Shown here one piece after another: positions 39,028-48,261 of a stretch of 64,000 nucleotides of DNA. The stretch covers positions 2,471,001 to 2,535,000 of the forward strand of contig NC_019974.1 in the NCBI RefSeq assembly GCF_000328685.1. The letters are read 5' to 3'. Numbering within the stretch: the first letter of the stretch is position 1; each line of letters opens with the position of its first letter. Both the position numbers and the translations under genes were made by a program. Below the pieces are notes generated by a model that was not told the DNA's origin, searched no databases, and saw only the letters and a list, made by a program, of their open reading frames with translations. Source of the stretch: Natronococcus occultus SP4 (lineage in GTDB: Archaea; Halobacteriota; Halobacteria; Halobacteriales; Natrialbaceae).

Positions 39028-40389
39028 TTACGCGACCGTCGCGCTCCGCCCCGCGGCCTCGATTGCCTCGAGGAAGAGCCCGATCCCGAGCTCGATCTCG
39101 CGTGTGCTAGAGTCGAGCGGCGGGAGCAGCCGGATCGTCTTTTTCCCGCAGCCAAGCGTCAACAGCCCGCGGCGCAGCGACTCCTCGACGACGGCGCTGC
39201 GGCGTTCGGCGGTGTCGAACTCGACGGCGAGCATCAGCCCCTTCCCCCGGACGTCGACGACGTGGTCGGGCGCGTCGTCCCGGAGTAACTCCTGGGCCTG
39301 CCGTCCTCGCTCGGTGGCGTTCTCGAGCAGCTCGTACTCGTCGATCGCTTCGAGGGTGAACGCGCCCATCATCGAGCCCAACAGGTCGCCGCCGCCGAAC
39401 GTCGACCCCAGTCGGTTCTTCTCGCTCGGGAAGATCTCCTCGCGCGAAATGGTCGCGCCGACTCGCAGCGCCTTCGCCGCCGAGATGACGTCGGGTTCGA
39501 TCGGGTAGTGATCGGCGGCCCAGAGCTCACCGGTCCGGCCGATACCGGACTGGATCTCGTCGACGACCAGCGGGATGTCGTACTCGTCGGTGACGTCCGC
39601 GACCTCCTGCATGAACGCCTCGCTGGGGAAGCGGTAGCCGCCGACGCCCTGGATCGGCTCGAGGGTCAGAAACGCGATCTCGTCGGGGTTGATGTGACCG
39701 CCCTCGGGCGCGAGCATCCCGCGGAGCTGCGAGTCGCTGCCGGCGAAGAAGCCACAGTCGCAGCTGTCGGCGTCACAGCCCCGATCCGCGCAAAACGGCA
39801 CCGTCTCGATCCCGTCGATCTGGGGGTAGTGGCGCGTGTAGACCTCCTTCGATTTGGTGATCGAGAGCGTCCCGAAGGTGCGTCCGTGGAAGCTGCCGGC
39901 GAAGGCGACGCCGTACTTCGCGGGCGCCCGGTAGTCGTGGGTGATCTTCATCGCGTTCTCCATCGCCTCCGCGCCGGAGTTCGAGAGGAAGACGGTGTCC
40001 ATGCCGTACTGGCTCGAGACGTCAACCAGCGTCTCCATCAGGTGGCTCGATCCCGGAACGTCGGATTCCTCCGGGGTTGGACCCGCACCGAAGTACATGT
40101 CCTGACCGGCGATCTTCATCGGCTCGACGAGATCGAACTCCCGTAGTTTGTCGGTGATCTTCTCGTTGTTGTAGCCAAGCGGCGCGGCGCCGATGTGACA
40201 CGTGAAATCGAGTAAGACGTTGCCGTCGACGTCGGTGACGAACGGACCGTTGGCCTCGCGGGTGACGTCCCAGACGAATTCGTGAGAGTACTCGCTGGGG
40301 GCCGCGTTCTCCCCGTGGAACTCGACCCACTCGCGGGCGTTGGGGCCGGGGAACGCATCCACGTTCGGTTCGGCAGTGTCCCTATCCAT
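39028..40389 (-). CDS. Class III aminotransferase (GABA-aminotransferase-like)
   Basis: A 453-residue PLP enzyme of aminotransferase class III. The cofactor phosphate loop is SNSGAEAMENAMKI near 136-149, the FHGRTFG motif is near 168-174, the acidic pair is in VVDEIQSGIGRTGE near 276-289, and the Schiff-base Lys is about 306 in SAAKALRVG. An unusual Cys cluster, FCADRGCDADSCDCGF, lies at about 199-214. The substrate is probably an omega-amino acid such as GABA or beta-alanine, by family resemblance only. It lies downstream of the BCCT transporter gene but has its own TATA box. Confidence 0.88.
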   Translation of the reverse strand: MDRDTAEPNVDAFPGPNAREWVEFHGENAAPSEYSHEFVWDVTREANGPFVTDVDGNVLLDFTCHIGAAPLGYNNEKITDKLREFDLVEPMKIAGQDMYFGAGPTPEESDVPGSSHLMETLVDVSSQYGMDTVFLSNSGAEAMENAMKITHDYRAPAKYGVAFAGSFHGRTFGTLSITKSKEVYTRHYPQIDGIETVPFCADRGCDADSCDCGFFAGSDSQLRGMLAPEGGHINPDEIAFLTLEPIQGVGGYRFPSEAFMQEVADVTDEYDIPLVVDEIQSGIGRTGELWAADHYPIEPDVISAAKALRVGATISREEIFPSEKNRLGSTFGGGDLLGSMMGAFTLEAIDEYELLENATERGRQAQELLRDDAPDHVVDVRGKGLMLAVEFDTAERRSAVVEESLRRGLLTLGCGKKTIRLLPPLDSSTREIELGIGLFLEAIEAAGRSATVA

Positions 40390-40414
40390 ACACAGATAAT
40401 GTGTACGTCGTACA
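40389..40414. promoter_or_regulatory. Operator-like palindromes at the class III aminotransferase start
   Basis: Two overlapping inverted repeats lie between the TATA box and the start codon: TACAC-N7-GTGTA at 40389-40405, and TGTACG-T-CGTACA at 40402-40414. Such a position suits a repressor that blocks polymerase. The first has a near copy upstream of the BCCT gene. Confidence 0.5.
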
Positions 40415-40420
40415 TTAAAT
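40412..40420 (-). promoter_or_regulatory. TATA box for the class III aminotransferase
   Basis: The minus strand reads ATTTAATGT, centred about 27 bases before the ATG at 40389. A leaderless transcript is likely. Confidence 0.5.
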
Positions 40421-40490
40421 GTTGTTATAGATGGGCACGGAGTCGGGCGGGTCGAGCGACAACGAACGAAAAAACGGCGAAAGACGATCG

Positions 40491-42125
40491 TCAGTCGTCG
40501 TCGCCCGGCTCCGCGGTCGTGGTCGGATCGTCGGAGCGCCGTTCCGTCGAGCCGATGATCACCGTCTCCTCCTGGAGCAACACGCGGCCGTTAGTGCCGC
40601 TGAGGTTCTTGATCAGCGACACCATCGCGAGGAAACAGACGATCGCGAACGGCGCGCCGGTGATGACGACGGCCTGCTCGAGCGCGCCGGCACCGCCCTC
40701 GCCGCCGAGGATCATCAGGATCGCGGCGGTCAGCCCGAGGACGATCCCCCAGAAGACCCGGTTGATCGTCGACGGCGACTCCTTGCCGCCGGTGGTCATC
40801 ATCGAGACGGCGAGCGTCGAGGAGTCGGCGGAAGTGACGAAAAACGTCGTCACGAGCACGAGGAACGCGACCATGAAGATCGCACCGAACGGCAGGGCGT
40901 CGAACAGGATGAACCCGGAGATCTCCGCACCGACCTCCCCCGCGATGACCTCGCCGAAGTCGGCACCGCCCGTATCCTGCAGGAAGACGGCGGTCCCACC
41001 GACGAACGTGAACCAGGGGATGGTCGCAGCGGAGGTCGCGACGATCCCGGTGAAGGCGATTTCGCGGATGGTTCGGCCCTTCGAGATCCGGGCGATAAAG
41101 AGCCCGGCGAACGGCGACCACGAGAGCGCCCACGCCCAGTAGAAGACCGTCCAGCTCTCGACCCAGCCGGTGCCGCCGTCGCCGGCACCCGTGTAGAGAC
41201 TCATCGCCACGAAGTCGCTGATCATCCCGCCGATCGCCTGCGAGCCAAGCAACAGCAGGAACATCGTGGGGCCGAGGATAAACGTCGCGAGCATGATCAG
41301 GACGAACAGTCCCATGTTGAAGTTCGAGAGCCGGCGAATCCCCTTATCGATCCCGAGCACCATCGAGATCGTAAACAGGATCGTCATGGTCGTCACGATC
41401 AGCAGGATACCGGTGTCACCGAAGTTCATCCCCCACTGGTACTCGAGGCCGCTGACGAACTGGCTCCCGATGAACCCAAGCGAGGTCGCGACGCCGCCGA
41501 TCGTCGCAAAGACCGCGAGGATGTCGACGATCTTGGCGACGGGACCGTCCAGATTGTCCTTCCCGATGATCGGCGTCAGCGCCGAGGAAGCCCGCAGGGG
41601 GACCTTCTCGTAGTTGTACGCGAAGTAGCCGATCGCGATCCCCATGATCGTAAACACCGCAAGCTGGGGTAAGGCCCAGTGGAACAGCGTCTGCTGGATC
41701 GCGAGCGGGATGGCCTCGCTGGACCCCCCTTCGGCGCCGAACAGCGGGTTCGGATCGGCGTAGTAGAACAGTCCCTCGGTCGGTCCCCAGAACACGACGC
41801 CCGCGGCGAAACCGGCCGAGTACAGCATCGCGAAAAAGGAGAGGAAGCTGTACTCCGGGTCCTCGTCGCCGAGCTTGAGCTTCCCCCAGGGACCGATGAT
41901 CAGGTACAGCAGGAAGACCACGACCAGGAACACGATCACCAGCAATGCCCAGCTCATGTAGCTGAGCATCTCCCCATGGACGGTCTCGATTCCCCCGGCG
42001 ACGAAGCTCCGATCGATAAAGAAGGCGACGATGACGCCGACAGTGAGGAGGGCGCCGAACACGAACACGACCGGGTCGAGTTCGTCGAGGAACCGACCGA
42101 CCATCCCCGGTTCGTCGTTGCTCAC
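40491..42125 (-). CDS. BCCT-family transporter (betaine/carnitine/choline type)
   Basis: A 544-residue secondary transporter with about 12 helices. BCCT hallmarks are the early GFAAGVVFWGPTEGLFYY near 102-119 and the Trp-rich helix 8 region WTVFYWAWALSWSPFAGLF near 315-333, followed by IARISKGRTIREI. It would import trimethylammonium compounds or related amines, for osmoprotection or as nutrients. Both termini are charged, and the C-terminus is short and acidic. The next gene downstream on the strand is a class III aminotransferase, so use of the substrate as a nutrient is possible. Confidence 0.92.
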   Translation of the reverse strand: MSNDEPGMVGRFLDELDPVVFVFGALLTVGVIVAFFIDRSFVAGGIETVHGEMLSYMSWALLVIVFLVVVFLLYLIIGPWGKLKLGDEDPEYSFLSFFAMLYSAGFAAGVVFWGPTEGLFYYADPNPLFGAEGGSSEAIPLAIQQTLFHWALPQLAVFTIMGIAIGYFAYNYEKVPLRASSALTPIIGKDNLDGPVAKIVDILAVFATIGGVATSLGFIGSQFVSGLEYQWGMNFGDTGILLIVTTMTILFTISMVLGIDKGIRRLSNFNMGLFVLIMLATFILGPTMFLLLLGSQAIGGMISDFVAMSLYTGAGDGGTGWVESWTVFYWAWALSWSPFAGLFIARISKGRTIREIAFTGIVATSAATIPWFTFVGGTAVFLQDTGGADFGEVIAGEVGAEISGFILFDALPFGAIFMVAFLVLVTTFFVTSADSSTLAVSMMTTGGKESPSTINRVFWGIVLGLTAAILMILGGEGGAGALEQAVVITGAPFAIVCFLAMVSLIKNLSGTNGRVLLQEETVIIGSTERRSDDPTTTAEPGDDD

Positions 42126-42235
42126 GCGAACTCACCCCCCGCTTTCGAGCCGAGCGGTCGCTTCGATCCGCGTCGGTGCTCCCGTCCGCTTGCCGTGCGC
42201 TGCGATGGCATACCGAACCCATTGCCAGTATCTCG

Positions 42236-42246
42236 CATAAATATTT
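42236..42246 (-). promoter_or_regulatory. TATA box for the BCCT transporter gene
   Basis: The minus strand reads AAATATTTATG. It lies about 115 bases from the start codon, so the transcript would have a leader, unlike most genes here. Confidence 0.4.
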
Positions 42247-42263
42247 CCTTTTCGTATCTCACA

Positions 42264-42280
42264 TACACAGATTACGTTTA
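42264..42280. promoter_or_regulatory. TACAC-N7-GTTTA site upstream of the BCCT gene
   Basis: It matches the palindrome at the aminotransferase start (TACACAGAT is shared in full) with one change in the second arm. It lies about 18 bases upstream of the TATA box. Confidence 0.4.
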
Positions 42281-42480
42281 TTGTACGGATCAGTACGGAC
42301 GTCTCTCAACAGAACCTATAATCGAACACACGGCCATAGTATATAGATATATCTTCAGAATGTATTGCTGTGACGTCCGATACTCGAACCAGAGGGTCGA
42401 AGTCCGATATCGATGCACTAACTGGCGGACGTGTCAAAAGACGTCGTAATCAGGTACTGTATTCGTCTCGACCGAGCCGA

Positions 42481-43128
42481 TCAGTTCGTCAGCTCCTCGG
42501 CGTTTCGCTCGCGAGCCGCCGCGCTCTCGGCGACGCGCTCGGCGAACTCGTCGACGCGATCCTTGATCTCCTCGCGAGTCGCCTCGGGGGAGAAGGAGTC
42601 GGACATCGTCAACAGTCGGACGAACGCACGCAGCTCCTCGTCGGTGAGCTGAGCGAACTCCTCGTTTTCGAGCTTCTCGACGACCTCGTCGACGTCGATC
42701 TGACCGACCGGTTCGACGTTGAACTCGACGTTGACCATCCGGTAGTTCGACCCCGCGAGGCGCTGTTCGGCCTTGCCGACGCCCTGCGAGAGCATGTCCT
42801 TGAACGGGGTGTGGTACCCCATCGTTCCGAGATGGAGAAAGGCGAGCATGTCGGTGATCCCCTGGGTGTAGGCGTCCCGATCCTCGTCGTCGGGGTCGAA
42901 CACCGTCTCCCGGTCGCGTTCCTCCATGTACTCGAAGAGGATACTGAAATCGAGGACGGCGTTACGGACCCGACGCCGGATCCGGTTGCGCTTCTGTTTC
43001 TTCGAGTGGTCGGTGTAGTCGGTCTTGCGACCGAGAAGGAAATCACGGTCGGAGGGTGTGAGGATCCCGCGGGGGCGATCCGAGTCGGCCGCGGTCCGAA
43101 GCGACTGCGGAACGTCATCCTGGCTCAT
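42481..43128 (-). CDS. Conserved haloarchaeal protein, unknown function (possibly DUF5806)
   Basis: A 215-residue soluble protein without membrane segments. The ATG at 43128 is preferred to a GTG three codons upstream because a TATA-like ATTAACG lies 29 bases before it. The middle has SKKQKRNRIRRRVRNAVLDFSILFEYMEERD, basic then hydrophobic, and the C-terminal third is made of acidic helices. I recall a haloarchaeal family of this type named DUF5806 but cannot confirm it here. No function is known, and it has no close operon partner. Confidence 0.75.
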   Translation of the reverse strand: MSQDDVPQSLRTAADSDRPRGILTPSDRDFLLGRKTDYTDHSKKQKRNRIRRRVRNAVLDFSILFEYMEERDRETVFDPDDEDRDAYTQGITDMLAFLHLGTMGYHTPFKDMLSQGVGKAEQRLAGSNYRMVNVEFNVEPVGQIDVDEVVEKLENEEFAQLTDEELRAFVRLLTMSDSFSPEATREEIKDRVDEFAERVAESAAARERNAEELTN

Positions 43129-43151
43129 AGGGAACACTGGCGGAGCGCGCG

Positions 43152-43160
43152 AATTAACGT
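43152..43160 (-). promoter_or_regulatory. TATA box for the gene at 43128
   Basis: The minus strand reads ACGTTAATT, centred about 28 bases before the ATG. Confidence 0.4.
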
Positions 43161-43215
43161 TTCTGATCCGAGCAACGTGATACGGATCGAACAGGTCCCG
43201 CGCGTCGCGAGAGGG

Positions 43216-44496
43216 TCACACCGGTCGCCGGGAAAGCTCGAGGATCGTCGCCGAGAGCACCCCCGTACCGATCTCGAGACTCCGCTCGTCGATATCGAAC
43301 GTCGGCGTGTGGTGGTTGGTCGGATGATCGGTCCCCACGAGCAGGTAGGAGGTGAGTCCGCCGTTGTCCTGAACGCGGTTCATCAGGTAGGTGACGTCCT
43401 CGCTGACGCCGAACTCCGTCGAGGGAATCACCCGGTCGACGCCGTCGACGTCCCGGGCGACACTCCCGACGAGCTCCCGCAGGGCCGGGTGGCTGTCGGC
43501 CCGAGGGGACTCGCTGACGACCCGCGGCGTGACGTCACAGTCGTGCATCTCCGCGGCGGCATAACAGACACGCTCGAGTTCGGTCCGCATGTACTCCATC
43601 AGCCCCGTCGTCTCGCCGCGGACCTCAGCGTCGATCGTGATCTCCTCGGCGATGACGTTGCTGGCAGTGCCGCCTTCGATCCGTCCGACGTTGACGCGAG
43701 TCTGGCCGTCGCTGTGGCGGGGGATCGCGTAGGCGTTCTGGATCGCCGTCGCCGCGGCCTGCATCGCGTTCCCGCCCTCGTTGGGCGCCTTCCCCGCGTG
43801 GGCGCTTGCCCCCTCGAACGTCGCCGTCAGGTGAGCCATCGCCAGCGGCTTCTCGACGCCGGCGACGATCTCGCCCGTCGGGTGGTCGAGCCCGATATGG
43901 AGCGCCAGCAGGTGGTCGACGTCCTCGAGGTAGCCGCCCTCGGCCATCGCCTTCCCCCCGCCAGAGATCTCCTCGGCGGGTTGGAAGAAGACCTTCAGCG
44001 TCCCCTCGAAATCACTCTCTTCGATCGCCTCGATCGTCCCCAGCGCGATCGCGATGTGGGCGTCGTGGCCGCAGGCGTGCATGTATCCCTCGTGTTCCGA
44101 GCGAAACCCCTCTGCAGCGGGCCGGTGCTCGGCCAGATCGGACTCGGTCATCGAGATCGCGTCCATGTCGACCCGGAGCCCGATCGTCGGCCCGTCGCCG
44201 CGCTCGAGGACGCCGACCACGCCGGTGTGGCCGTTCACGGTCCGCTCGAGGACGTTCTCGCGAACCCCCGCCTCGCGGGCGCGCTCCAGCCAGGGCTCGA
44301 GTTCGTCGGAGTCGGGGACGGCCATCCGCTGGGCGGTCGAGAGCGCCTCCCGGCCGACGGCGATCTCGTCGACGCCGATGCGCTCGAGCTCCTCGACGAT
44401 CCGGGCCGTCGTCTGGAACTCCCGCCAGCCAGGTTCGGGGTGGCGATGAAACGCTCGTCGAAGGTCGCGCAACCGGGTCCGCACGTCGTAGGCCAT
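43216..44496 (-). CDS. M20-family amidohydrolase (aminoacylase/IAA-amino acid hydrolase type)
   Basis: A 426-residue zinc metallo-amidohydrolase. The N-terminus RRAFHRHPEPGWREF is typical of the HipO/IAA-hydrolase branch. Metal ligands are in MHACGHDAHIAIALG near 135-149 and VFFQPAEEISGGGKAM near 167-182, and a late His is in NHHTPTFDIDE. The dimerisation domain (about 200-320) contains FEGASAHAGKAPNEG. It removes acyl groups from N-acyl amino acids or related amides; the exact substrate is open. The start at the internal ATG is supported by a TATA box 29 bases upstream. Confidence 0.9.
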   Translation of the reverse strand: MAYDVRTRLRDLRRAFHRHPEPGWREFQTTARIVEELERIGVDEIAVGREALSTAQRMAVPDSDELEPWLERAREAGVRENVLERTVNGHTGVVGVLERGDGPTIGLRVDMDAISMTESDLAEHRPAAEGFRSEHEGYMHACGHDAHIAIALGTIEAIEESDFEGTLKVFFQPAEEISGGGKAMAEGGYLEDVDHLLALHIGLDHPTGEIVAGVEKPLAMAHLTATFEGASAHAGKAPNEGGNAMQAAATAIQNAYAIPRHSDGQTRVNVGRIEGGTASNVIAEEITIDAEVRGETTGLMEYMRTELERVCYAAAEMHDCDVTPRVVSESPRADSHPALRELVGSVARDVDGVDRVIPSTEFGVSEDVTYLMNRVQDNGGLTSYLLVGTDHPTNHHTPTFDIDERSLEIGTGVLSATILELSRRPV

Positions 44497-44769
44497 TCTT
44501 GGCGCTCCTAGGTGTGGGGGATACTTAATCATGATCAACGTCGCCATTCGGGCGTCGGACGAACGGGGCGTGGTTCGCCCCACGCTTCATGGCGGGCGAC
44601 GACTCTTCAGCGGCAGCCTGAACCGACAGTGAGGGCCCGAATTCGTGTTGGAGCCCGCCAAACTCGCCCGGGGTTATCTCGTGCGCGTCGACGATCCTCA
44701 CATCGATGCCATCCCCCGTATGCTCGAGTCCGAGCGGAGAGTAACGGAGAACGACGAACTCTCGACGAC
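44497..44769. other. Intergenic region with possible gene remnant
   Basis: A 273-base gap. The right part holds a TATA box for the M20 gene. Read on the minus strand, about 44580-44760 gives a protein-like stretch (LRYSPLGLEHTGDGIDVRIVD and on), which lacks a start codon in register and could be the tail of a lost gene. Nothing else is seen. Confidence 0.35.
44521..44529 (-). promoter_or_regulatory. TATA box for the M20 amidohydrolase
   Basis: The minus strand reads ATTAAGTAT, centred 29 bases before the ATG at 44496. Confidence 0.5.
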
Positions 44770-45159
44770 TCAGCCGAGGTAGGCGGTCGCGTCCATCTCG
44801 ACGCGGACGTCCTCGGGCAGCCGCGAGACCTCGACGCAGACTCTGGCGGGCGGCTCGTCGCCGAACCGCTCGCCGTAGGCCTCGTTGACCCGCTCGTAGT
44901 CCTCGAGATCGGTGAGATAGACGGTGACCTTCACGACGTCTGCGAGGCCGTCCCCGCCGGCCGCGTCGACGACCGCGGCGATGTTCTCGAGGACGCGGTC
45001 GGTCTGGGTCCCGATGTCGCCGTCGACGGCCTCGCCTGTCTCGGGATCGACGGGGCCGTAGCCGGAGACGTGGAGCGTGTCCCCGGCGCGGACGCCCTGG
45101 GAGTAGGGGTTGTCGTTGCTCGGTGCGCCGTCGGTACTGATGGGTTCGGTGTCGGACAT
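44770..45159 (-). CDS. RidA-family reactive imine/enamine deaminase
   Basis: A 129-residue Rid/YjgF-type protein. It shows the core GDTLHVSGYGPVDPETGE near 26-43, the DVVKVTVYLTDLEDYERVNEAY stretch, and the catalytic Arg in PPARVCVEVSRLP near 104. RidA hydrolyses reactive imines released by PLP enzymes. It starts 11 bases after a class III aminotransferase gene on the same strand, which fits this role well: the two are surely cotranscribed. Confidence 0.9.
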   Translation of the reverse strand: MSDTEPISTDGAPSNDNPYSQGVRAGDTLHVSGYGPVDPETGEAVDGDIGTQTDRVLENIAAVVDAAGGDGLADVVKVTVYLTDLEDYERVNEAYGERFGDEPPARVCVEVSRLPEDVRVEMDATAYLG

Positions 45160-45170
45160 CGGTCGCGTCC

Positions 45171-46553
45171 TCAGGCTGTCCGTTTGGCCGCGGCGGTCGC
45201 GTGTTCGATCGCGTCGGCGATAACGTCCATCGCCGTCTCCGCGAGCTCGTGGGTGAGCACAAGCGGCGGTAGCAGCCGGAGGACGTTGCTGTGTCGTCCG
45301 GCCGTCCAGACGAGGACGCCGTGTTCGAAGCAGTACTGCTGGATCTCGTCGACGAGGTCGTCGGCGGGCTCGCCGTCACTATCGACGAACTCGGCGCCGA
45401 TGAACAGCCCCTGGCCGCGGACGTCGCCGAGGTGGTCGTTCCCGTCGGCGACCTCCCGGAGTCGGTCGCGGAGGGACGTTCCGAGTTCGCGACCGTGGGC
45501 TAACAGGTCGTGGTCCTGGATGTACTCGATGGCGCGGCTGCCGGCCCGCATCGCGACAACGTGGCCGCGGTAGGTGCCGGCGTGGTCGCCCGAGCCCCAG
45601 GTATCGAGGTCCTCGTGGTACATCGTCGCCGACAGCGGGAAGCCCACGCCGCCGAGCGCCTTCGCCGAGGTCATGACGTCGGGCGTGACGTCGGCCCAGT
45701 CGCTGGCCCACCACTCGCCGGTGCGGCCGAAGCCGCTCTGGATCTCGTCGAAGACGAGCGTGACGTCGTTGTCGTCGGCGAGGTCGCGCAGCCCCTGCAG
45801 GAACCCTTCCGGCGGGGTGACGACGCCGCCCTCGCCCTGGATCGGCTCGACGAAGATGCCCGCGGGGTTCGCGAGCCCGCCGTAGGGGTCCTCGAGGATC
45901 GCCTGGACCTCCTCGAGGGCGTGGTCGACGGCCTCCTGAGGCGTCTTGTCCTGGTCGAACGGGTTGGGGTAGGGCGCGTGGACGACGTCCGAAAGCAGCG
46001 GCGAGTAGTGCTCCTTGAGCTTCGTGTTCGAGGTCAGACTCATCGCGCCGGTGGTCGCGCCGTGGTAGGATCCGCGAAACGCGATCAGCCCGTCACCGTC
46101 GCTGTTGTACTTCGAGAGCTTGATCGAGGCCTCGATGGCGTCGCTGCCGGTCGGGCCGCCGAAGACGACCTTCTGGTTCCCCGCCAGTCCCGCGGGTGCG
46201 ATCTCGTCGAGTTTCTCGATCAGTTCGAGGCGGGCTTCGGTCGGGAAGTCGACCGTGTGGACCAGCTTGTCGGCCTGCTCGTGGACGGCCTCGAGGACGT
46301 AGGGATTCGCATGGCCGACGTTGAGCACGCCGATCCCGGCGAACATGTCGATGTAGGTGTTGCCGTCGACGTCCCGAACCGTCGCGCCCGATCCCTCTTC
46401 GAACGCGACCGGGATGTCCTCGGGGTAGGCGACCGCGCTGCTGTCGATCTCGCGTTGCTTCTCGAGTAGCTCCCGCGATCGTGGGCCGGGGACGCTGTCG
46501 ACGGTCGGTGCCTCGTCGTAGTGGAGTTCGTCGATCGGTGGACTGCTCGTCAT
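45171..46553 (-). CDS. Class III aminotransferase (diaminobutyrate/GABA-type)
   Basis: A 460-residue PLP enzyme. The PLP phosphate loop is [16 protein letters not shown] near 131-146, followed by [13 protein letters not shown] near 162-174, [16 protein letters not shown] near 267-282, and the Schiff-base Lys at about 298 (MTSAKALGG). Pro-Thr-Gly-Ser in the phosphate loop resembles the diaminobutyrate-2-oxoglutarate branch, but 4-aminobutyrate or other substrates remain possible. The start at the internal ATG is supported by a TATA box 29 bases before it. RidA follows in the operon. Confidence 0.9.
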
Positions 46554-46577
46554 ACGTAGGGCCAGGTGGAACAGTGA

Positions 46578-46585
46578 TAAATAAT
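46578..46585 (-). promoter_or_regulatory. TATA box for the aminotransferase-RidA operon
   Basis: The minus strand reads ATTATTTA, centred 29 bases before the ATG at 46553. A TACAC half site (46611-46615) with the same AGA following lies upstream, similar to the sites near the BCCT and first aminotransferase genes. Confidence 0.55.
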
Positions 46586-46772
46586 TTGTCCACAGTATCC
46601 ATAGAGGACGTACACAGAAATCGGTTCGATAGCCGTCGGTCGGCCGTGAGAACGTCTGTCGCTCGATAGTCAATCACTATCGATGAGGAGCACCGATATA
46701 AGCGGGGCGAAAGACGTCGGCGAGCGGCCGTGGAATCGGAATCGACGGACGTCGTTCCGTCGACTCGGGCGA

Positions 46773-47318
46773 CTACCAGGGTTCGTCCTTCAGCCCGAGC
46801 TGGTAGGCGATCATGTTCGTCGTGACGTGCAGGATCGGGGTGAGCACGACGACGACGGCGACCACGCTCCACGTGAACACCTCGAAGAACCACTCGGTCG
46901 CCAAAAGCGCCGTCAGGGGAAGCGAGACGACGACGAAATCGAGCTGGTCCAGTCCGGGAAACATGGCGCCGCGCTGGCGTCCGGTTCGGCGCTTGAGAAA
47001 CGAGGCCATGATGTCGCCGAGCATCGCTCCCGCGGCGAGGCCGACCGCCGCAAGCGGCGTAAACGCCGGGACGTCGATCCCGGTCGCCGCGCTCACGTCG
47101 TCGGCGACGAGGGTCAGTGCGCCCGCGAGGACGACTCCCGCGAGGATTCCCGCGGCGGTTCCCCGCCAGGTCTTCCCGTCGCCGAGCACGCGTTTGTCGT
47201 CCCACGTCCGTCCGCCGTCGATCGGCCGACCGCCACCGGCCAGCACCGCGGCGTTGTTTGGAACGTAGGCCGGCAACATCGCCCAGAAGGCGACGACGAT
47301 CGTCTCGAGTACTGCCAT
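46773..47318 (-). CDS. carS: CDP-archaeol synthase CarS
   Basis: A 181-residue integral membrane CTP transferase. It makes CDP-2,3-di-O-geranylgeranyl-sn-glycerol, the branch point for archaeal polar lipids. It has about five hydrophobic helices, and the conserved signatures are AYVPNNAAVLAGGG near 18-31, DGKTWRGTAAGILAG near 47-61, and LKRRTGRQRGAMFPGLDQLDFV near 109-130. The length is normal for the family. It is divergent from the proline dehydrogenase gene. Confidence 0.93.
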   Translation of the reverse strand: MAVLETIVVAFWAMLPAYVPNNAAVLAGGGRPIDGGRTWDDKRVLGDGKTWRGTAAGILAGVVLAGALTLVADDVSAATGIDVPAFTPLAAVGLAAGAMLGDIMASFLKRRTGRQRGAMFPGLDQLDFVVVSLPLTALLATEWFFEVFTWSVVAVVVVLTPILHVTTNMIAYQLGLKDEPW

Positions 47319-47396
47319 GTTCGGCGGGAGGCACCCGCAGGTCTTAGTCTGGGGTGGTTCGTCCTCGACTCGTCGGGCGAGACGTAGCACTAGTTC

Positions 47397-47405
47397 CATA
47401 TACGG
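47397..47405 (+). promoter_or_regulatory. TATA box for the proline dehydrogenase gene
   Basis: CCATATACG is centred about 24 bases before the ATG at 47425, in the gap between divergent genes. Confidence 0.4.
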
Positions 47406-47424
47406 ACGGTCACCTAGATCGAGT

Positions 47425-48261
47425 ATGATCCCGCCAATCGCGAGCCGGTTCGTCGCCGGGGAGGCGCCTGCCGAGGCCCTCGACCACGTTCGCCAGCTGA
47501 ACGATCGGAACGTAAAGGCGATCGTGAACCTGCTGGGGGAACACTACGACGACCGCGAGGACGCGGACGCCGACGCCCGCGAGTACCGGGAGCTGGTCGA
47601 GGACATCGCCCGCTCGGATCTGGGGGCGACGGTCTCTGTCAAACCCTCCCAGATCGGCCTCGACTTCGGCGAGGACGTCTTTCGGGAGAACCTCGAGGAG
47701 ATCGTCGAGACGGCGGCCGACCGCGGCGTCTTCGTCTGGATCGACATGGAGGATCACACGACGACCGACGCGACCCTCGACGCCTACGAGGAGCTGGCCA
47801 GAGAACACGACGGTGGGGTAGGCGTCTGCGTTCAGGCAAACCTCAGACGGACCCGGGAGGACGTGAGGCGGCTCGCCGACGTCCCCGGGAAGATCCGGTT
47901 CGTCAAGGGTGCCTACGACGAGCCGGCCGAGATCGCCTACAAGAATCGGGAGACGGTCAACCGGGAGTACAAGGCCCTGCTCGAGTACGCCTTCGAGAAC
48001 TTCGAGGACGGGATCGCGATCGGCAGCCACGATCCCGCGATGATCGATCGCGCGATCGAGCTCCACGAGGAACACGGCACTGACTTCGAGATCCAGATGC
48101 TGATGGGTGTCCGGAACGACGCCCAGTTCAACCTCGCCGAGGAGTACGAGGTCTACCAGTACGTCCCCTACGGCGGTCGCTGGAAGTCCTACTTCTACCG
48201 GCGCGCGATGGAGCGCAAGGAGAACCTCTGGTTCGCGGTGCGAGCGATCGTCGGCCGCTAA
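47425..48261 (+). CDS. Proline dehydrogenase family protein
   Basis: A 278-residue FAD-dependent TIM-barrel protein of the PutA/PRODH family, which oxidises proline to pyrroline-5-carboxylate. The family features are VSVKPSQIGLDF near 72-83, VWIDMEDHTTTDATL, VCVQANLRRTREDV near 134-147, IRFVKGAYDEP, and the C-terminal YVPYGGRWKSYFYRRAMERKENLW, whose Arg pair binds substrate carboxylate. It is monofunctional, without a P5C dehydrogenase domain. A partner P5C dehydrogenase is not in the window. Confidence 0.9.
   Translation: MIPPIASRFVAGEAPAEALDHVRQLNDRNVKAIVNLLGEHYDDREDADADAREYRELVEDIARSDLGATVSVKPSQIGLDFGEDVFRENLEEIVETAADRGVFVWIDMEDHTTTDATLDAYEELAREHDGGVGVCVQANLRRTREDVRRLADVPGKIRFVKGAYDEPAEIAYKNRETVNREYKALLEYAFENFEDGIAIGSHDPAMIDRAIELHEEHGTDFEIQMLMGVRNDAQFNLAEEYEVYQYVPYGGRWKSYFYRRAMERKENLWFAVRAIVGR

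Follow-up and report, generated by a model that had tools for sequence, protein, structure and literature searches.

Operator-like dyads at three promoters of a Natronococcus occultus gene cluster suggest common control of ectoine uptake and breakdown

The window analysed here is a stretch of 64,000 nucleotides (nt) of Natronococcus occultus SP4 (contig NC_019974.1, positions 2,471,001 to 2,535,000 of the forward strand), in which a cluster on the minus strand encodes, in this order, a class-III aminotransferase (AT2), a RidA-family protein, an M20 amidohydrolase, a protein of 215 amino acids (aa), a BCCT-family transporter and a second class-III aminotransferase (AT1). We propose, with a probability of roughly 0.63, that three motifs at the promoters of AT1, BCCT and the AT2-RidA operon are operators of one regulator of the uptake and breakdown of ectoine (and probably hydroxyectoine) in haloarchaea, the 215-aa protein being the most likely candidate for it. 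Direct observation covers the sites, their positions, their conservation, their co-occurrence and the dyads at paralogous genes. The order M20, 215-aa gene, BCCT, AT1 is kept in 16 of the 20 loci from relatives, mostly together with RidA and AT2. The genes and predicted operators are as follows.

39028..40389, minus strand: AT1, class-III aminotransferase, 453 aa (PF00202, 1.1e-73)
40389..40405, minus strand: predicted AT1 operator TACACATTATCTGTGTA (minus-strand reading), its final base being the A of the ATG (fixed place in 21/21 and 51/51 loci)
40491..42125, minus strand: BCCT-family transporter, 544 aa, predicted ectoine importer (PF02028, 2.6e-144)
42264..42280, minus strand: predicted BCCT operator TAAACGTAATCTGTGTA (minus-strand reading), upstream of the B recognition element (BRE) and TATA (conserved)
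42481..43128, minus strand: candidate regulator, 215 aa, without a Pfam or NCBIfam family
43216..44496, minus strand: M20 amidohydrolase, AbgA / N-acetyl-diaminobutyrate (N-acetyl-DABA) deacetylase-like (TIGR01891 above cut-off; NF038260 2.1e-34, below cut-off)
44770..45159, minus strand: RidA-family enamine/imine deaminase, 129 aa (PF01042; TIGR00004 above cut-off)
45171..46553, minus strand: AT2, class-III aminotransferase, 460 aa, diaminobutyrate-transaminase-like (PF00202 1.9e-99; NF005393 1.2e-120, below cut-off)
46611..46627, minus strand: predicted operator of the AT2-RidA operon, GAACCGATTTCTGTGTA (minus-strand reading; conserved)

A sequence-only reading of this DNA had pointed to an arm common to the three promoters, and all three places were confirmed. 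The octamer TACACAGA lies on the plus strand at 40389, 42264 and 46611 with no further copy in the window; these three matches compare with 0.36 expected, and three or more were reached in 0 of 100 dinucleotide shuffles, which places the window count above chance. Genome-wide (4.31 Mb) there are 25 copies of the octamer and 32 of its reversed control, so that the octamer is not special by itself; three of the 25 copies fall inside the single 6.2-kb stretch of the cluster. Sixteen of the 22 copies elsewhere lie inside some open reading frame (ORF) of at least 100 codons, as do the three cluster copies, so ORF coverage cannot separate the two groups. A promoter-like copy at C1:4004306, before a gene that by eye resembles a metal ABC transporter binding protein, was judged a chance occurrence. 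The exact palindrome TACAC-N7-GTGTA is present at five genomic places, with TACACAGATAATGTGTA read at the AT1 place only, and palindromes with two mismatches number 13 in the window against 7.2 expected, which is not significant (6 of 100 shuffles as high). We regard the sites as real because they are conserved in relatives, not because of the frequency of the octamer.

When relatives are compared, the three promoters stand out as islands of conservation. The AT1 site holds one fixed place against the ATG in 21/21 loci (the window and 20 relatives; search span 34 nt), the BCCT site lies 127-163 nt upstream in 18 of 19 loci and 226 nt upstream in the remaining one, with weak matches in several distant loci, and the AT2 site lies 55 nt upstream in 13 of 15. 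In two of the related genomes (G031 and G028) TACAC/GTGTA has become TATAC/GTATA, and this joint switch of the two arms is what would be expected for a dyad-binding protein. The pattern TANAC-N7-GTNTA, picked after the first sites were known, was then counted at 7/8 or better in 62 named loci, which came from a scan with the 215-aa protein and represent Natronococcus, Natrinema, Natrialba, Natronorubrum, Halorubrum, Halopenitus, Halarchaeum, Halobacterium, Halalkalicoccus, Haladaptatus and others. It was found at AT1 in 51/51 cases (48 perfect, all against the ATG), at BCCT in 49/51, at AT2 in 22/42, at D-2-hydroxyacid dehydrogenase genes in 13/16, at M20 in 15/57, at the 215-aa gene in 7/62, and at RidA and glutamate dehydrogenase genes in 0/32 and 0/4, respectively. 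Genes for DoeA, an ectoine-hydrolase-like protein described below, matched in 4/5 cases, of which probably one is a true operator: L216, L218 and L254 resemble the downstream TACAC box and L255 alone resembles the operator. Random windows matched in 2-6%, and the motif is thus commoner upstream of these genes than elsewhere; the count is only partly held out, because at least 9 of the 62 contigs were already among the genomes compared.

The elements that surround the sites are conserved as well:

40413..40420, minus strand: TATA-like element of AT1, ATTTAATG, its end 24 nt before the ATG (read from the sequence, conserved in relatives)
42237..42254, minus strand: BRE/TATA-like element of BCCT, CGAAAAGGAAATATTTAT (conserved block in relatives)
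46577..46585, minus strand: TATA-like element of AT2, ATTATTTAT (conserved in relatives)
46589..46603, minus strand: second box of AT2, TATGGATACTGTGGA, with CTGTG 22 bp downstream of the first and adjoining the TATA (conserved in relatives)

On the coding strand of AT1, TACACATTATCTGTGTA is followed by TGG, so that the dyad runs into the ATG; relatives have a TATA-like ATTTAAT followed by the 17-bp dyad TANAC-N7-GTNTA abutting the ATG, a TATA-to-ATG distance that would be consistent with a leaderless mRNA. At BCCT, relatives show TAAAC-N7-GTGTA and then CGAAAAGGAAATATTTATG. The best BCCT match within 220 nt falls at this upstream position in 25 of 49 named loci and within 103 nt of the start in the other 24, which include most of the Natrinema and Halorubrum loci and in which it stands about 35 nt closer to the gene in a TATA-overlapping form. 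At AT2, relatives show TTTCTGTGTACG, 22 bp on a second TACTGTGGA box, and then the TATA-like element. The second arm had been described as decaying from AT1 through BCCT to AT2; this description stands for AT2, whose left arm is truly weaker, but not for BCCT, whose arm TAAAC is the conserved form in relatives.

The sites also lead beyond the cluster. We built a 21-nt profile from 25 sites drawn from the N. occultus genome, its own three sites included, and from 19 other of the 23 genomes that carry doeA, with G012, G022 and G049 left unused. In N. occultus this profile finds the three cluster places only, at E up to 10 (150 of 288 first-look candidates scored), and a second, broader profile (R2) finds the AT1 site alone; in the genomes outside the training set the best E was 0.04 (G012), 0.03 (G022) and 0.2 (G049). 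In G031, G011 and G027 extra profile matches precede an M24-family hydrolase gene, and relatives of this hydrolase match TIGR02993, 'ectoine hydrolase DoeA', at 2.2e-138 (G012) and 4.6e-134 (G028). N. occultus has one close copy of doeA at C1:1784153-1785319, about 0.73 Mb from the window; its product is 69% identical to the DoeA of G012, and it is through this identity that the TIGR02993 match, taken from the G012 protein, is linked to it. Upstream of this gene stands TACACAGTTACTGTAAT, found by eye, as the profile did not recover it; downstream is a glutamate-dehydrogenase-like gene (named by eye), and TACACAATTGTCGTTAA lies upstream of a D-2-hydroxyacid dehydrogenase gene nearby. A site read by eye precedes doeA in 20 of 22 readable orthologs, N. 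occultus included, usually with GTAAT, GTATC or GTAAC as a relaxed right arm, and in G006 a profile match lies 63 nt upstream of doeA. No clear dyad was seen at doeA of G049 and G022, and none at the distant DoeA paralogs of G003 and G008. In G028, G012, G022 and G049 doeA lies within the cluster, as it does on a Halobacterium sp. locus. The earlier proposal of one regulator for uptake and deamination thus gains support from conservation across genera, fixed spacings, covariation of the dyad and the site at doeA. Because doeA and the content of the cluster point there, the compound under this control is most likely ectoine or hydroxyectoine.

Two gene groups in other loci touch on this assignment. 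In locus L118 (~2783, G009), a second M20 gene and an EutB-like ammonia-lyase gene stand opposite a gene for a D-2-hydroxyacid dehydrogenase, and TATACACAATCTGTGTGTATG lies in the space between (gene names by eye); this group may possibly represent a hydroxyectoine branch. In L254 (Halarchaeum), genes for a substrate-binding lipoprotein and an ABC ATPase (functions by eye) adjoin a candidate regulator gene with a perfect dyad, and perhaps form an alternative importer for the same compound.

The distribution of doeA follows that of the sites and of the 215-aa protein. Among the 61 related genomes, doeA orthologs occur in 23, and in all 23 the best profile match lies in this gene set with E below 0.3. 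In the 38 genomes without doeA, E below 0.3 was reached in two (G045 and G046), elsewhere in the genome, and E up to 10 in 11; at the latter threshold 34 of the 61 genomes have a match. AT1 homologs with 59-64% identity in G038, G041, G040 and G054, all without doeA at the cut-off, have no start dyad, those of G057 and G043, which lie on the other strand, being left out of this reading. The 215-aa family as a whole has matches in 42 of the 61 genomes; its close orthologs (E below 1e-60), by contrast, occur in the same 23 genomes as doeA and in none of the other 38, and this co-occurrence holds even in G056, where the 215-aa gene is on another contig. Moreover, the dyad abuts the own ATG of the 215-aa gene in G028, G012, G022, G049, G052, Halalkalicoccus, Haladaptatus and one metagenome-assembled genome, as well as in Halarchaeum and Halobacterium sp., and in G001, G004, G008 and G009 the start carries a dyad with one arm off consensus (TAACC/GTGTA).

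Variant dyads extend to paralogs that are 23-39% identical to the 215-aa protein. At 14 of 30 paralog starts a dyad with 4 or 5 of 5 pairs, chiefly TAATC-N7-GATTA, ends at the A of the ATG, against 24 of 203 control ORFs, a control that still included AT1 and cluster genes. N. occultus has a single copy of TAATC-N7-GATTA (C1:1976601-1976617; L170, L261; control 0), and it stands against the ATG of a paralog of the 215-aa protein. Of the genes in the examined loci, 27 of 89 family members and 54 of 57 AT1 genes carry the start-codon form TANNC-N7-GNNTA-TG, as does one further AT1 that had been sorted among the others, and 0 of the 668 remaining genes do; the bin of 89 was drawn with a loose text pattern that may admit non-members and missed L177 and L181, both with perfect dyads. 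In a stricter count of 504 ATG ORFs, chosen by length, acidity and GC content at third codon positions rather than by a gene finder, 36 had a perfect 5-N7-5 start dyad, namely 29 AT1 and 7 family genes; only perfect dyads were sorted by gene, and 30 ORFs with 4 of 5 pairs were left unsorted. A second paralog subfamily (MTxRKNAMLTTEDRRWLTGEK...; L178, L187-L190, L197) was noted as well; L178 and L187-L190, the members tested, lack a start dyad of this geometry.

We infer binding by the 215-aa protein, its effector, the sign of control and the substrate from these sequence patterns, and the following scheme would accommodate them. The operator would be the 17-bp dyad TANAC-N7-GTNTA. It would span positions of about -16 to +1 relative to the start codon at AT1 and, in several genera, at the gene of the regulator itself, lying at AT1 roughly 7 nt past the TATA-like element; as the site overlaps the start codon and the presumed leaderless mRNA start, a bound protein should block AT1 transcription. 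At BCCT, AT2 and doeA the predicted site lies just upstream of the BRE/TATA, and these upstream sites may also serve activation. The distance from the end of the site to the TATA core, counted by hand, is about 17 nt at doeA, 23 nt at BCCT and 30 nt at AT2, and since these spacings are not helically phased, simple activation by direct contact is doubtful. The nearer BCCT match sits where relatives with the same sequence have a TATA-like element, which favours repression. Most likely, then, the regulator would repress until an ectoine breakdown product, for example N-acetyl-diaminobutyrate, loosens it; the choice of such an effector follows the analogy of EnuR, and may hold here. The 215-aa family would bind TANNC-N7-GNNTA dyads, often across its members' own start codons. 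On balance we lean, if narrowly, towards the wider view that the 215-aa protein founds a new haloarchaeal family of transcription factors, in which an all-helical protein, by a way of binding DNA not seen before, reads TANNC-N7-GNNTA through a basic helix, paralog specificity is set by the two middle bases of either half-site (TACAC for ectoine genes, TAATC for another subfamily) and many members repress their own leaderless mRNA from its start codon. In the predicted structure (predicted local distance difference test, pLDDT, 84; all helical; built from 37 sequences with paralogs, an earlier model from 10 similar sequences having reached pLDDT 45), the basic stretch HSKKQKRNRIRRR lies at the start of the long second helix. 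It is invariant in 10 orthologs, with R49, I50, R51 and R53 present in at least 90% of the 37 family members, and one might speculate from the model that it could be the part that reads DNA.

Several observations weigh against this proposal. A full dyad is missing from the start of the window's own 215-aa gene; of the seven matching 215-aa genes in the named loci, six have the dyad at the ATG and five of these are perfect; and 62 of the 89 family genes carry no start-codon dyad. The RidA genes are without a dyad throughout, and the genomes are related to each other, so that the counts are not independent. Pfam and NCBIfam models recognised no family in six members of the 215-aa family, and fold searches with the model matched no known DNA-binding fold, a lack that in itself proves nothing.

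The strongest competing explanation, which we nonetheless consider unlikely, accepts the operators and the control of ectoine use and assigns them to a winged-helix protein (TrmB, Lrp/AsnC or IclR) encoded elsewhere, the 215-aa protein being an accessory that is merely co-regulated. The missing fold would fit this explanation, and the available part of PMC4158304 describes a TrmB site of similar geometry in H. salinarum, TACT-N7-8-GAGTA, with activation from upstream and repression from downstream positions. TrmB-family proteins (PF01978) occur in 59 of the 61 genomes, mostly in many copies, with 11 matches in N. occultus, and AsnC-type regulators act on bacterial ectoine genes according to the accessible portion of PMC5924519. 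However, TrmB proteins occur in genomes both with doeA and without it (orthologs not separated), and a winged-helix regulator leaves unexplained why variant start dyads occur at paralogs of the 215-aa protein and at none of the 668 other genes. The sequence-only reading had likewise named Lrp, TrmB or IclR, and here it found no backing: the eight genes at 39-48 kb show no match to these families, and none of these families recurs in 15 loci of other genomes, as judged by eye without a family scan. That reading is thus partly supported as a whole. Other regulator-like genes were set aside as well. One encoding 117-130 aa flanks L113, L256 and L258 (3 of 15 loci), matches in 58 of 61 genomes, and lies at C1:3736052 in N. 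occultus, absent from the window and from the other loci searched; being near-universal and, in N. occultus, far from the cluster, its presence does not track that of doeA. Three more genes were seen by eye in one cluster each, none recurring: in L069 a small winged-helix-like gene, in L071 a Bat-like gene and in L113 a response regulator.

Somewhat less probable still is a real regulon for a compound other than ectoine, such as an acylated diamino acid or a betaine-like solute handled by BCCT, M20 and the two class-III aminotransferases. The M20 protein is closest in the PDB to an aminobenzoyl-glutamate utilization protein (3io1, 1.8e-84), and in Halarchaeum the candidate regulator gene has an ABC transporter as its neighbour. 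M20 and AT2 do resemble the models of DoeB2 and DABA transaminase, in both cases below the cut-off. The DoeA, M20 and aminotransferase matches, moreover, fall below their specific cut-offs (DoeA scores of about 462 in G012 and 447 in G028 against an NCBIfam equivalog cut-off of 613), which counts against our assignment too and leaves ectoine as a predicted substrate. Against another compound, doeA has the same operator and the same phylogenetic distribution as the 215-aa gene and sits inside the cluster in the four genomes and on the Halobacterium sp. locus named above, and PMC13188858, in its available part, independently proposes halobacterial ectoine clusters with BCCT and aminotransferase genes. 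Finally, chance or core-promoter similarity, with an octamer coincidence picked post hoc, would fit the lack of genome-wide over-representation and the non-significant relaxed palindrome, but this very improbable explanation is refuted by the fixed position of the AT1 site in 21/21 and 51/51 loci, the covarying dyad arms and the 2-6% of matching random windows.

The BCCT promoter has one further feature, a short leader:

42122..42211, minus strand: leader ORF of 29 codons, MPSQRTASGREHRRGSKRPLGSKAGGEFA, ending in a stop that overlaps the BCCT start codon (GTGA)

This leader ORF probably lies at the 5' end of the BCCT mRNA. Among 52 BCCT genes examined, 19 gave no match to the leader pattern and 33 had readable leaders, and in 27 of these 33 the open frame comes to its end between -6 and +12 relative to the BCCT start; differences in leader length are mostly multiples of three. 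In relatives the peptide is MPSxSMAxGRW-like, and an inverted repeat, GCCAT...ATGGC, was seen by eye within the leader. The best solved relatives of BCCT are the trimethylamine transporter and BetP, and that of both AT1 and AT2 is the archaeal class-III aminotransferase 7vno. A proline dehydrogenase gene at 47317-48261 of the window (plus strand) neighbours the cluster on the far side of carS, the archaeol synthase gene, and several relatives have it in the same place.

If correct, these predictions would give the so far provisional annotation of haloarchaeal ectoine use the form of a regulon that can be tested at defined sites, and archaea would gain a new family of transcription factors along with the rule by which it recognises DNA. 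The literature searched, which leaves out most subscription papers, contained neither the operator nor its extension to doeA nor the candidate regulator family. The pathway has already been proposed in print; the regulator family, if confirmed, would be new.

In Halobacteria, ectoine clusters with BCCT and aminotransferase genes have been proposed and termed provisional (PMC13188858, 2026, available part). The present gene set resembles them in its EutD/DoeA, aminotransferase, peptidase-like and BCCT genes and in its conservation between genera, and differs in that the accessible text of that paper gives no operator or regulator. Bacterial ectoine clusters under EnuR or AsnC, as described in the accessible portion of PMC5924519, likewise place import, a DoeA-type hydrolase, a deacetylase-like enzyme and an aminotransferase under common control, and the EnuR inducers reported there are the catabolic intermediates N-acetyl-DABA and DABA. 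Unlike these systems, the cluster here has no MocR/GntR or AsnC gene among its eight genes, and it combines a 17-bp TANAC-N7-GTNTA operator, an M20-type amidohydrolase, a BCCT transporter and several separate promoters. No GntR winged helix fused to an aminotransferase was found among the eight genes scanned, AT1 and AT2 matching PF00202 only. With TrmB of Halobacterium salinarum (VNG1451C) the predicted system shares a palindrome, a spacer of about 7 bp and two kinds of site position, one upstream of the promoter and one downstream at the start, to judge from the available part of PMC4158304. The TrmB operator TACT-N7-8-GAGTA nevertheless differs from the conserved arms TANAC/GTNTA, and TrmB responds to glucose and glycerol and has a winged helix, whereas the candidate here is predicted to be all-helical without a known fold. 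Although Halobacterium LrpA1 is an Lrp/RAM protein and no such gene lies in the present cluster, its autoregulation, as given in the accessible part of PMC2894021, offers a close parallel, with a leaderless gene that carries an inverted repeat in its own promoter.

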